From positions 1 to 64,000 of the forward strand of contig CALXXL010000002.1 in assembly GCA_944392655.1 (NCBI GenBank): DNA of 64,000 nt, written 5' to 3'. Below the pieces are notes generated by a model. It did not search any database. It was not told the DNA's origin and was given only the letters and a program-made list of their open reading frames with translations. This DNA comes from an uncultured Victivallaceae bacterium (GTDB lineage: Bacteria > Verrucomicrobiota > Lentisphaeria > Victivallales > Victivallaceae). Positions 46,683-56,560 of the stretch are shown here, piece after piece. The translations under genes and the position numbers were made by a program. Each line of letters begins with the position of its first letter. Position 1 is the stretch's first letter.

Positions 46683-47123
46683 TTAATGGTGATAGCCGGA
46701 GTTGTTTAATATAGCCCCGGCACGGTAGAGCTGCTCCAGCACCAACAGCCGGGCAAGCTCGTGAGTAAAGGTCATCGGCGACAATGAGACTAAACAACTT
46801 GCCGATGACTTTATTTTTTCATCCAGACCATAAGGTCCGCCAATTATAATCACAATCCGACGTCCGGCGCCCCCAAGACGGGCGGCAAATTCCACCGACG
46901 TGAACAACCGCCCCTCTTCACTCATAACCAACACAAAATCTTTACCGGGATCAAATAATTTCAGCATCCGCGCCGCTTCATCCTGCACCGTGGAGTCCTT
47001 CAGCTCAACTATATCCAGTTTGGCATAGGCCACAAGCCGCTTGATAAATTCATCGCACTTGGCCGCCAGATGACGATCCTTCATCTTGCCCACAACAATC
47101 AGCTTTACCAGCAGCGTGTTCAC
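46683..47123 (-). CDS. rlmH: 23S rRNA pseudouridine-1915 N3-methyltransferase RlmH
   Basis: This 146-residue SPOUT methyltransferase modifies the pseudouridine in helix 69 of 23S rRNA. The knot region IIIGGPYGLDEKIK (about 98-111) and the end MTFTHELARLLVLEQLYRA are diagnostic. The start is a few residues longer than in E. coli. It overlaps mnmA by 4 bases, so it is the last gene of the arn-mnmA-rlmH run. Confidence 0.95.
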   Translation of the reverse strand: MNTLLVKLIVVGKMKDRHLAAKCDEFIKRLVAYAKLDIVELKDSTVQDEAARMLKLFDPGKDFVLVMSEEGRLFTSVEFAARLGGAGRRIVIIIGGPYGLDEKIKSSASCLVSLSPMTFTHELARLLVLEQLYRAGAILNNSGYHH

Positions 47124-48193
47124 AATATGATCCCTCCGCCAACTACCATGTCGTCCAGATAAAATACCGCCGACTGCCCCGGTGTAACCGCACGCGCCGG
47201 AGATGACAGATTTACCCGCCAGATTCCGGACGGTTCCGCCGTGATCCGCCCCGCAACCGCCGGCGAACGGTAGCGGATCTGTATCTGCAACTCCCGGTCT
47301 GATACCTCAGCAGGTGATATCTGCCAGTTTAAATCACCAACCCGGAATTCCGCACACTCCAGCTCACGCTGATCCGTTACCAGCTCAATCTCTCCCGTCG
47401 CTGCCGTTATCCTCTTTATATAGGCCGGAACCCCCAATGCAACATTTAAACCCTTGCGCTGCCCCGTTGTATAACGGTGTATGCCATCGTGTCCGCCCAC
47501 CACTTTGCCGCCATAGGTGAATACTCCTCCCGGCATCTCCTCGCCAAATAACCGGCGCAACGTCTCCGGAAACGGCTCCCCCGCAAAACTGAAGCAGGCA
47601 TCCTGACTTTCACGCTTCTCCGCAACCCGGCGCAGATTCAACTCACCAGCCAGCCGCTTTACCTCGCTCTTGCTCGTCCAGCCAAGCGGGAAATCGGCAA
47701 ACGCCAGCTGTTCACAACTCAAACGGTAGAGAAAATAACTCTGATCCTTCAATGGATCGTCCCCTCGCAACAGCCGCCAACCGCCATTCACCAAAACCTT
47801 CTTCGCATAATGGCCGGTTATCAGCTTTTCCGCCCCGGTTTTATGTGCAAACTTGATCAATTCACCAAACTTTATCCCCGTATTGCACCAGCAACACGGA
47901 TTAGGCGTAACCCCGCGCCGGTAACACTCCCACGCAGGACGCAGCACTTTCGCTTCAAAATCTTTATAGCAGTCTAAATAGTGGTGCTCAATCCCCAGCT
48001 TCGACACCGTCTCTTCTATCGCACGGCGATCCTCAAGCGTACCGCAGTTCTGACGCGAACTGAACTCTTCATCCGGATGACGCAATGACAGCGTAACACC
48101 TATAACCTCAAAGCCACGCTCCACCATCAATGCCGCCGCCACCGCAGAATCCACTCCACCGGAAAGCGCAACCACTATCCTCGTCTTACTCAT
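47120..48193 (-). CDS. mnmA: tRNA-specific 2-thiouridylase MnmA
   Basis: MnmA adds sulfur to wobble U34 of tRNAs for Glu, Gln and Lys. The 357-residue protein has the ATP PP-loop ALSGGVDSAV (about 9-18). The first catalytic Cys lies in the NPCCWCNTGIKFG segment (about 98-110), and the second in ESQDACF (about 197-203). It lies 6 bases after arnD and overlaps rlmH. The fusion gene at 54802 probably finishes the 5-position of the same uridine. Confidence 0.96.
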   Translation of the reverse strand: MSKTRIVVALSGGVDSAVAAALMVERGFEVIGVTLSLRHPDEEFSSRQNCGTLEDRRAIEETVSKLGIEHHYLDCYKDFEAKVLRPAWECYRRGVTPNPCCWCNTGIKFGELIKFAHKTGAEKLITGHYAKKVLVNGGWRLLRGDDPLKDQSYFLYRLSCEQLAFADFPLGWTSKSEVKRLAGELNLRRVAEKRESQDACFSFAGEPFPETLRRLFGEEMPGGVFTYGGKVVGGHDGIHRYTTGQRKGLNVALGVPAYIKRITAATGEIELVTDQRELECAEFRVGDLNWQISPAEVSDRELQIQIRYRSPAVAGRITAEPSGIWRVNLSSPARAVTPGQSAVFYLDDMVVGGGIIL

Positions 48194-52933: not shown

Positions 52934-53578
52934 ATGGAAACCTTCAGAAAAATCAATCTCAACGCCGCTGAAACTATGGCGAATTTTAAAATCATCCCCG
53001 TGGCCGTGCTTAATTCGGTCGATCAGGGATTGAGAATCGCAGAACTATTGACCAAATACGGCATCTCCGCCATCGAAATCACCTTCCGTACCCAGGTGGC
53101 GGCTCAGGCTATCGCCGCAGTCAATGCCGCCTTCCCCGGAATGTTTACCGGCGCAGGCACCATCCTTAACTGTGACGACCTCCGCCGCGCAATGGACGCC
53201 GGAGCAAGATTCGCCATCGCCCCCGGATTCAATCCGCAGATCGTCGCCATGGCAAGAATAAACTGCATCCCATTTGTACCGGGAATCGCAACGCCAAGCG
53301 AACTCGAACAGGCTTACGCCGCCGGATGCTCTTTCCTTAAATTCTTCCCCGCCGAAGCCGCAGGAGGCGTTAAAATGCTGAAAGCTATGACCGCGCCATA
53401 CCGCCACCTGGGCATCAAATTCATGCCCACCGGAGGAGTCACCCAGGAAAATGTTGCCGAATATCTGGCCATACCGGAAGTCGCAGCCGTCGGTGGAACA
53501 TGGCTTACCAAAGACCCCGGCAACTGCGAAAACAGTATCAAAACTGCCGCCGAACTGGTGAAAAAACTTAAATCCTAA
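52934..53578 (+). CDS. eda: KDPG/KHG aldolase
   Basis: This class I aldolase splits 2-keto-3-deoxy-6-phosphogluconate to pyruvate and glyceraldehyde-3-phosphate in the Entner-Doudoroff or hexuronate pathway. The 214-residue product shows the catalytic Glu in AIEITFRT (about 45) and the Schiff-base Lys in FLKFFPAEA (about 134). PTGGVTQEN lies near 166. Its 3' end overlaps the convergent oxidoreductase by 4 bases. No Edd gene is in the window, so hexuronate breakdown is equally possible. Confidence 0.93.
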   Translation: METFRKINLNAAETMANFKIIPVAVLNSVDQGLRIAELLTKYGISAIEITFRTQVAAQAIAAVNAAFPGMFTGAGTILNCDDLRRAMDAGARFAIAPGFNPQIVAMARINCIPFVPGIATPSELEQAYAAGCSFLKFFPAEAAGGVKMLKAMTAPYRHLGIKFMPTGGVTQENVAEYLAIPEVAAVGGTWLTKDPGNCENSIKTAAELVKKLKS

Positions 53579-54726
53579 CCTAAAAGCTCTTTTTCCAGCT
53601 TCAACGCCGCAGACACGTCGCCAAGCAGAAGTATACCGGTTAATCTGCCATCGCGGCGTGTCAGCGCCTGATATACTCCCTTTGCCGGATCAGAACTTAC
53701 TTCTCGTTCCACACCTTCAACACATCCGCCGGCTTCACCTATACTGTAAAGCCGCGTTCCGAATCCGGTAAAACGCGCCGCGGCAGGCTTGACTGTATAT
53801 TCCGTATGCTCTCCCATGATATTCAACGCCGCAACTTTACCCTGTTCACGCGCAGGATTCCATAATCCGGATACCACGCCATCCACCTCAGCACAATCTC
53901 CCGCCGCATAGATCCCGGCAACCGAACTTTGCATATCACGCCCGGTGATTATTCCGCGGTTCACCGCCAGACCACCGGCCTCCGCCAGCGCAATATTGGG
54001 CGCTGCACCCATCGCCCAGATCACCAGCTCCGCCGGAACCGCATCGCCTTCACCAAGCTCAACCGCCGCGACTTTGCCACCTTTCCCGGTAAATCCGGTT
54101 ACATGAACTCCGTAATGTGCAGAGAGATTTTTCACCTTCTTCATCGCTGCCATGAATATCCGGCCGCCCTCTTCGTCCAGCTGGCGCGGCATGATAAAAG
54201 GACACAACTCCAATACCGCAACATCCACCCCTTTGGCCACCAACCCGGCAGCAAACTCCAACCCCAGAAGACCACCACCGATAACCGCCGCACGTTTCAC
54301 CCCATTCAGCCGCACATAGTCGGATGCAGCGGTAAAATCACTTAAATGACGGCCGGGAAATATCCCCTCAAGCTCCGCACCTTTTAGCGGCAGTGTACGC
54401 GAGGATGCTCCGCACGCAAGAATAATCTTATCCGCCGTTATCTCTTTACCGTCCTTCAACGTCAGCCGCCTATCTGCCGCATCCAGCGCAACGGCCGGAT
54501 TGTTCAACTCAAGCGCAATCCCGTTATCCCGGTAATAGGAGTCCGGCTTGAGGTAAAACTGCGCGTCCGGAACCGGCTCAGCCAGCATCCGCGTCAACGC
54601 CGGGCGCCGGTAGGGAAGTACCGGCTCGTCCGATATCAGCGTAAGCTCCGCTTCAATTTTACCGCTTATAAAAGTATTCAGCGCTTCAAATCCAGCCGCT
54701 CCGCCGCCAACTACTGCAATTCTCAT
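53575..54726 (-). CDS. FAD/NAD(P)-dependent oxidoreductase
   Basis: The 383-residue flavoprotein has an FAD-binding GGGAAG near the start, an NAD-binding GGGLLGLEFA near 150, and a second FAD motif, GIYAAGDCAEV, near 272. This is the layout of rubredoxin reductases and the N-terminal part of NADH-nitrite reductases. No redox Cys pair or rubredoxin domain is seen. The longer frame (start 54801) is rejected: the ATG at 54726 has GGAG upstream and starts at the conserved strand. The electron acceptor is unknown. Confidence 0.88.
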   Translation of the reverse strand: MRIAVVGGGAAGFEALNTFISGKIEAELTLISDEPVLPYRRPALTRMLAEPVPDAQFYLKPDSYYRDNGIALELNNPAVALDAADRRLTLKDGKEITADKIILACGASSRTLPLKGAELEGIFPGRHLSDFTAASDYVRLNGVKRAAVIGGGLLGLEFAAGLVAKGVDVAVLELCPFIMPRQLDEEGGRIFMAAMKKVKNLSAHYGVHVTGFTGKGGKVAAVELGEGDAVPAELVIWAMGAAPNIALAEAGGLAVNRGIITGRDMQSSVAGIYAAGDCAEVDGVVSGLWNPAREQGKVAALNIMGEHTEYTVKPAAARFTGFGTRLYSIGEAGGCVEGVEREVSSDPAKGVYQALTRRDGRLTGILLLGDVSAALKLEKELLG

Positions 54727-54801: not shown

Positions 54802-56544
54802 ATGCGCAATTTACTATTTTTCAGCGATTATATACAACAGAAATACGGTAAAAAACTCTACCGTATTCCCATCGACCTCGCTTTGGGATGCCCGAACCGG
54901 GAGAACCGTTTCGGCCCCGGGTGCATCTTCTGCGCCGGAAACGGCAGCCGCGCACGGCATCTCGCCCGCAATCTCAATTTACATGAGCAGATCGCCAGAG
55001 GCATCGATTTCGCCAGCTCAAGATATGGCGCTGAACCGCCATATATCGCATATTTTCAATCTTTTACCAATACTTTTGCCCCAGTTGACACCCTGCGAAA
55101 ACTCTACTCCGAAGCGCTGAATGCCGCCGATTTCAGAGTAGTCATTATCGCCACCCGCCCGGACGCTCTGCCGGAGGAGGTTCTTGACTATCTTGCCGAA
55201 CTCAATTCACAATATGAACTATGGGTCGAGCTCGGCGTTCAGACCGCCAATGACCGCACCAGCGAAATTATCCGGCGCGGACACTATTTCAATACCGTCA
55301 AAACCGCAGTCAACGCTCTGGCGCAGAGAAATATCCGCACCGCATGCCATCTGATCGCCGGACTGCCGGGCGAAAATATGGAGGATTTTATCCATACCGC
55401 ACAGGAGGTGGCCAAACTACCATTCAGCGCAGTGAAATTTCATCAGCTCCAGATTCTTAAGAATACTGAACTCGCCCGGCGTTATCAGCAGGATCACAGC
55501 TTCGTCACTCCGCTCAATGAGTACGCCTATGCCGATATTCTGCGCCGCATGATTCTGGAACTGCCGGACAATATGATGATTATGCGCCTCGTTGCCGACG
55601 CCGACCCGGAGGATATCGTCGCACCAAAGTGGTGGATGAATAAAAGCCAGTTCCTCGAATTCTTCCAGCGCGAATTCCACCACCCGTCCATCTTTCCGCA
55701 GCAGCAGACCGCCGACGGCTCCGTTACACTCTATCACCCGAAATACCGCCAGCACTTCCATTCGCTCGCCGGAGCTGACGCCGAGGCGGAGCACAAGTTT
55801 ATTGAAGCATCTTCCATCCGGGAAAAATTCGCCGGCTCATCGGAAAATAATCCTGTGCGGGTTCTCGACGTCGGATTCGGGCTGGGAGGCAATACCATCG
55901 CCACAATTAAGGCCGCCAGACAATACGGCGGATTTGCCAGAATAACCGCTCTGGAAATGGACAGCCGGGTAATCGAGGCGGCCATGGCTCTCCACCCGGC
56001 AAATTCAGAAACCTTTCAAATCCTTAATCAACTCCTGCTCAATCAGCATTTCAACTGCCCATACGGCTCGGTTGAACTGATTCTCAACGATGCCAGAAAA
56101 AGTGTAGTCCAGCTGCAGGATCACTGCTTCGACTTTATCTGGCTCGACGGATTCTCACCCGACTGCAACCCCGAATTGTGGAGTTACGACTTTATCCGCA
56201 AACTCGCAGGAATATTGGCTCCGCAGGGCGAAATCCTCACCTACTCCGCCAGCTTCCCGCTCCGCGGCGCCATGCTCCGCGCTAAACTCGCAGTAGGCGA
56301 AACCGAACCATTCGGACGGCGCAAAGGCGGTACCATCGCCGCTCACAACCCGGAACATATCACCTCACCCCTCCGCGAAAAGGAGCGCAATATCATCCTG
56401 CACTCCACCGCCGGTGTGCCTTTGAGAGACTTTAATTTGGCTATGTCGGCAAAGGATATAACCGATTATCATGCAAGGCTCGTGGCCAAACTCCGCAAAG
56501 CAGGCGTCCCAAAGTGGTTTAAACCAGCCCCCGCCAACCGGTAA
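54802..56544 (+). CDS. Radical SAM (YhcC/MnmL-like) fused to MnmC-type tRNA methyltransferase
   Basis: The 580-residue protein has two domains. Residues 1-300 are a TIGR01212/YhcC-like radical SAM domain with cluster cysteines in the GCPNREN...GCIFC segment. GVQTAND and CHLIAGLPGENMEDF follow. Residues 300-560 match the MnmC methyltransferase domain (DUF752): FPQQQTADGSVTLYHP, HFHSLAGADAEAEHKF, the SAM motif VLDVGFGLGGNT and IWLDGFSPDCNPELW. The B. subtilis relative YtqA (MnmL) acts in forming aminomethyluridine from cmnm5U. The fusion therefore probably makes mnm5(s2)U34 without the usual FAD oxidase domain. It ends in a terminator. Confidence 0.9.
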   Translation: MRNLLFFSDYIQQKYGKKLYRIPIDLALGCPNRENRFGPGCIFCAGNGSRARHLARNLNLHEQIARGIDFASSRYGAEPPYIAYFQSFTNTFAPVDTLRKLYSEALNAADFRVVIIATRPDALPEEVLDYLAELNSQYELWVELGVQTANDRTSEIIRRGHYFNTVKTAVNALAQRNIRTACHLIAGLPGENMEDFIHTAQEVAKLPFSAVKFHQLQILKNTELARRYQQDHSFVTPLNEYAYADILRRMILELPDNMMIMRLVADADPEDIVAPKWWMNKSQFLEFFQREFHHPSIFPQQQTADGSVTLYHPKYRQHFHSLAGADAEAEHKFIEASSIREKFAGSSENNPVRVLDVGFGLGGNTIATIKAARQYGGFARITALEMDSRVIEAAMALHPANSETFQILNQLLLNQHFNCPYGSVELILNDARKSVVQLQDHCFDFIWLDGFSPDCNPELWSYDFIRKLAGILAPQGEILTYSASFPLRGAMLRAKLAVGETEPFGRRKGGTIAAHNPEHITSPLREKERNIILHSTAGVPLRDFNLAMSAKDITDYHARLVAKLRKAGVPKWFKPAPANR

Positions 56545-56560
56545 AAACCCGGTTTTCTTT
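56536..56560 (+). terminator. Terminator overlapping the stop codon
   Basis: A 6-bp stem (56536-56541 with 56549-56554) with a seven-base loop is followed by TTCTTT. The stop codon of the radical SAM fusion lies in the loop. Confidence 0.6.

Follow-up and report, generated by a model that had tools for sequence, protein, structure and literature searches.

A fused MnmL-type radical SAM and MnmC2-type methyltransferase protein of Verrucomicrobiota as a putative bifunctional tRNA wobble-uridine enzyme

Introduction

MnmL, MnmC2 and the two-step enzyme MnmC are known already. In Escherichia coli, MnmC combines an MnmC2 methyltransferase with the MnmC1 FAD oxidase, and thus holds the last two steps of mnm5U formation in one chain. 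In Bacillus subtilis, MnmL (YtqA), a member of the radical SAM family TIGR01212, is coupled to the SAM-dependent methyltransferase MnmM (YtqB), which belongs to another family (PF06962) and is encoded by a separate gene. Loss of this methylase in B. subtilis leaves nm5s2U and no mnm5s2U (PMC9976899), and a 2025 review lists MnmL for the nm5s2U step, citing Jaroch et al. 2024 (PMC12548931). MnmEG is also able to make nm5U directly from ammonium (PMC9976899). The MnmC2 of Aquifex aeolicus stands alone, with no fused demodifying domain. Elp3 and MnmC2 both act on the C5 side chain of the wobble uridine. We found no description of an MnmL-MnmC2 fusion in the open-text literature. Jaroch et al. 2024 reportedly refer, in their abstract, to proteins fused within the MnmL/MnmM pathway, and a radical SAM-MnmC2 fusion may already be listed there.

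Results

Architecture of the fused gene

The 64,000-nucleotide stretch of Victivallaceae DNA analysed here (the window) contains an unbroken ORF at 54802–56544 on the plus strand, which starts with ATG and encodes a protein of 580 residues. The N-terminal radical SAM half, including Radical_SAM_C, occupies residues 7–292 (54820–55677, plus strand), and the C-terminal MnmC2-type tRNA methyltransferase half occupies residues from about 300 to 560 (55699–56481, plus strand). A Pfam scan identified Radical_SAM at residues 29–202 (63 bits) and Radical_SAM_C (PF16199) at residues 210–290 (62 bits), both over their gathering cut-offs, as well as Methyltransf_30 (PF05430) at residues 416–515 (82 bits against a gathering cut-off of 22). 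The radical SAM half also matches TIGR01212, the NCBIfam family that NCBI names MnmL/YtqA, with about 264–266 bits against a cut-off of 180. With both families over their cut-offs in one ORF, the fusion of a YhcC/MnmL-like radical SAM domain with an MnmC-type methyltransferase, as described in an earlier note on this DNA, is borne out. The absence of an FAD domain, also claimed there, agrees with the Pfam scan of the protein, which detected none, and with a search of the genome, in which TIGR03197, the FAD part of MnmC, was not found. An AlphaFold model of the protein (pLDDT 93.8, pTM 0.83) comprises two domains of high confidence, and the start methionine is kept in the aligned relatives. A terminator-like stem-loop with a T-rich tail (56536–56554, plus strand) overlaps the stop codon; terminator-like sites in the region do not exceed the chance number, and this one is well positioned. 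Given this hairpin over the stop codon, the fused gene looks monocistronic.

A gene for an NAD(P)H/FAD oxidoreductase of the rubredoxin/ferredoxin-reductase type (53575–54726, minus strand) lies head-to-head with the fused gene at a distance of 75 bp. Of 37 distinct loci, 17 keep this neighbour, always on the strand opposite to the fused gene, and the divergent reductase could possibly donate electrons to the radical SAM cluster. The gene for the tRNA 2-thiouridine synthase MnmA, which acts on the same target base, is located at 47120–48193 on the minus strand. The earlier note had pointed to mnmA at 7 kb; the gene is indeed present, 6.6 kb from the fused gene, but its proximity is not conserved, as mnmA was near the fusion in 0 of 21 relatives with flanks of up to 8 kb. 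An operon link between the two genes, which lie on different strands, was therefore rejected. The segment 48200–52762 (minus strand) carries arnA (1082 bits, over the cut-off), an arnD-like deformylase gene whose 363 bits fall just short of the cut-off (382), and a weak arnT-like gene; this group is probably involved in aminoarabinose modification of lipid A. No tRNA gene was found within the window.

The radical SAM half

The cluster cysteines Cys30, Cys41 and Cys44 are invariant in all 34 aligned sequences; their spacing in the window protein has one residue fewer than that of Bacilli MnmL and YhcC. The closest solved fold of this half is that of Elp3, which also works on C5 of U34 (Z 25.3 over 275 residues, predicted model against solved structures). 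In contrast to Elp3, the fused protein scores far below the cut-off of the Elp3 model TIGR01211 (39 versus 350 bits) and lacks a GNAT acetyltransferase domain in the Pfam scan. E. coli YhcC also scores in TIGR01212, with 473 bits. Since YhcC belongs to the family although E. coli uses MnmC, membership of TIGR01212 is not by itself proof of MnmL function. The genome encodes no second TIGR01212 protein over the cut-off besides the fusion.

All fused rows form one clade (99/96) of the radical SAM tree, within which some unfused Verrucomicrobiota rows are nested. Bacilli MnmL proteins encoded just ahead of mnmM cluster with Clostridia (100/99), E. coli YhcC pairs with a Thiothrix protein (100/99), and the Verrucomicrobiota MnmL proteins from genomes with MnmM sit elsewhere, with Bacteroides. 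The earlier placement of the radical SAM half with YtqA and YhcC accordingly holds at the level of TIGR01212, whereas within that family the half has a clade of its own, apart from both YhcC and Bacilli MnmL.

The methyltransferase half

The NCBIfam MnmC2 model NF033855 matches this half with 101 bits (E 7e-29), under its cut-off of 136, a threshold also missed by the further relatives tested, whether fused or solo. A. aeolicus MnmC2 (DUF752, 3vyw) is the closest solved relative in both sequence (E 1e-31) and fold, the predicted model superimposing on it with Z 31.1 and a root-mean-square deviation of 3.1 over 266 residues. In an alignment with E. coli MnmC and A. aeolicus MnmC2, Phe359-Gly360-x-Gly362, Asn364, Glu385, Asp449, Phe451 and Pro453 correspond to Phe67, Gly68, Gly70, Asn72, Glu101, Asp178, Phe180 and Pro182 of E. 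coli MnmC, whose roles, with Asp178 as the proposed base, were described previously (PMC3648344). By this alignment, the two enzymes share the same active-site residues, and the methyltransferase active site is intact in the window protein. The position of Asp26 in E. coli MnmC is taken by Gln317, and nearly all aligned Aquifex-type sequences have Glu or Gln there. A fusion sublineage represented by L050 (4788–6530) and L180 (445–2280) has a degenerate methyltransferase half, with Glu at the catalytic Asp position and the SAM loop lost or altered, next to an intact radical SAM half.

The methyltransferase tree splits with 100/100 support: the methyltransferase halves of FAD-type MnmC fall on one side, and on the other are the fused halves together with every stand-alone MnmC2 protein, including that of A. 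aeolicus. Unlike in E. coli MnmC, the fusion carries a radical SAM domain rather than an FAD oxidase and places it first, with the methyltransferase at the C-terminus, the reverse of the E. coli order. The idea in the earlier note that a radical SAM domain has replaced the FAD domain of an E. coli-type MnmC did not hold up, since the methyltransferase is of the Aquifex type, the order is reversed and there is no sign of a replacement. Its opposite domain order and the separation of its methyltransferase from the FAD-type side of the tree make the fusion look like a second assembly, independent of E. coli MnmC.

Distribution and history of the fusion

In the first relatives search, most matches spanned the whole protein, with 39–56% identity across the order, and the named records carrying the fusion came from Lentisphaerae, Victivallales, Kiritimatiellota and Verrucomicrobia bins. 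Among 289 genomes drawn evenly from the phylum (Lentisphaeria and other Verrucomicrobiota), 58 have the fusion as called from match coordinates; in two of them (G041 and G294) it is interrupted by contig ends, and in G055 it is a single ORF. Residues are conserved in both halves and at the C-terminus among the fused relatives. The same joint ORF across the order, together with its occurrence in these 58 genomes, establishes that the fusion is real and conserved. An assembly artefact was excluded by its recurrence in many separate assemblies. The fusion is missing from the window's own congener G001 and from all listed genomes of another genus (g15) in the same family.

Outside the phylum, one genome each carried the fusion in the phylum to which a Spirochaetes bin belongs (296 genomes) and in that of a Deltaproteobacteria bin (297 genomes); a search of 398 genomes in the phylum of Anaerotignum, run with no positive control, yielded none. 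Two lone fused genes (L139 in G518 and L151 in G699) come from genomes placed in two other phyla and are nested in the Verrucomicrobiota clade, which indicates horizontal transfer or bin contamination.

Two large fused groups appear in both trees: one of Lentisphaeria, and a second one of Verrucomicrobiota, with which its solo genes stay in either tree. A strict clade of fused rows was rejected (p-AU 1.6e-5), with unfused relatives nested inside, and the fused or unfused state changes five times on the tree. A single fusion in the phylum followed by splits or losses would be the simplest history; several separate fusions are possible.

Pathway context

MnmE and MnmG are encoded in the same genome (both over their cut-offs), and MnmA in the window; the genome should consequently make cmnm5(s2)U. 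As MnmM was not found either, judging from these searches the genome contains no other known enzyme for the late mnm5U steps. Across the 289 genomes, the fusion occurs in 58, MnmM in 45 and FAD-type MnmC in 4, and neither MnmM nor FAD-type MnmC was found alongside the fusion (0 of 58). The exclusion between fusion and MnmM has a Fisher value of 2e-5, which is descriptive only because it ignores shared ancestry, by which the mutual exclusion across genomes is confounded. These results are in line with the earlier suggestion that one protein may perform both late steps by a different chemistry.

Separate genes for the two activities also occur: an unfused MnmL-type gene and a solo MnmC2 coexist in six genomes of the phylum, and many Spirochaetota have both MnmL-type and MnmC2 proteins encoded apart. 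In Bacilli, a TIGR01212-family gene lies directly upstream of mnmM, an arrangement of MnmL and MnmM seen in Anoxybacillus and Enterococcus. MnmM was not found beside Clostridia MnmL with a narrow model, and the Bacilli MnmL-mnmM genes, not Clostridia MnmL, were taken as the marker. No MnmL match at E 1e-20 was obtained in 41 of the 45 genomes of the phylum that have MnmM; in these 41, nm5U may be a direct product of MnmEG and ammonium, or an unknown enzyme may make it. This count and the ammonium route of MnmEG indicate that the methylase does not in every case depend on a preceding radical step.

Discussion

From the domain anatomy, intact motifs, folds, pathway context, phylogeny and mutual exclusion obtained here, we infer the substrate, step order and chemistry of a putative bifunctional tRNA wobble-uridine enzyme, which would convert cmnm5(s2)U to nm5(s2)U with its radical SAM half and then nm5(s2)U to mnm5(s2)U with its methyltransferase half (probability of roughly 0.77). 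In the proposed pathway, MnmE and MnmG would make cmnm5U34, or cmnm5s2U34 together with MnmA. Removal of the carboxymethyl group by the MnmL-type half, with its [4Fe-4S] cluster, would leave nm5(s2)U, and SAM-dependent methylation of the amine thus exposed, by the MnmC2-type half, would yield mnm5(s2)U. This order is suggested by the nm5s2U that remains in B. subtilis upon loss of its methylase. The likely first event would be the loss of a hydrogen at the glycine-derived carbon to a 5'-deoxyadenosyl radical; oxidation would then give an imine, which would be hydrolysed, all with no need for O2. Such hydrogen abstraction and imine hydrolysis would mirror the action of the FAD domain of MnmC (PMC3648344). 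We lean slightly towards a broader reading, in which the protein would be an O2-independent, single-chain counterpart of MnmC, assembled independently from MnmL-type and Aquifex-type MnmC2 modules and possibly fed electrons by the divergent reductase.

The main doubt about the proposed function arises from the membership of YhcC in the same family and from the ability of MnmEG to make nm5U from ammonium. Both would fit a division of labour in which the methyltransferase half converts nm5U supplied by the MnmEG ammonium route, while the radical SAM half catalyses some other reaction at C5 or the wobble base of the same tRNAs. The Elp3-like fold, belonging to an enzyme with a different C5 reaction, and the 41 of 45 MnmM genomes with no MnmL are compatible with this arrangement. 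However, Bacilli set a TIGR01212-family gene next to the MnmM gene, MnmL is assigned to the nm5s2U step (PMC12548931), and fusion and co-occurrence bind the radical SAM half to the methyltransferase, so we consider this arrangement unlikely.

Direct decarboxylation of cmnm5U to mnm5U by the radical SAM half, with the methyltransferase half acting on a different tRNA pool or intermediate, is chemically possible, as the carboxymethyl group minus CO2 equals the methyl group of mnm5. This route is very improbable, because the nm5s2U that accumulates without YtqB/MnmM (PMC9976899) indicates that the step before the methylase yields nm5, and the methyltransferase active site is intact in the window protein. 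Even smaller is the chance that two unrelated activities were joined, or that the fusion arose by chance or in assembly. The loss of methyltransferase active-site residues in the L050 and L180 sublineage would suit unrelated activities, but the fusion is common to 58 of 289 genomes, with residues conserved in both halves and at the C-terminus, and its model has two high-confidence domains.

As comparative evidence of an independent kind, the fusion speaks for the MnmL family as the source of the substrate that the mnm5U methylase uses, and it offers a one-gene system for working out MnmL chemistry. It also suggests that the two-step solution of MnmC has evolved on two or more occasions, with a flavin enzyme in one case and a radical SAM enzyme in another, and how bacteria with a stand-alone MnmC2, such as many Spirochaetota, may obtain nm5U. 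FAD-type bifunctional MnmC is present in one family (f11; loci L119, L120 and L121) of the window's own class, and related lineages thus use different solutions.
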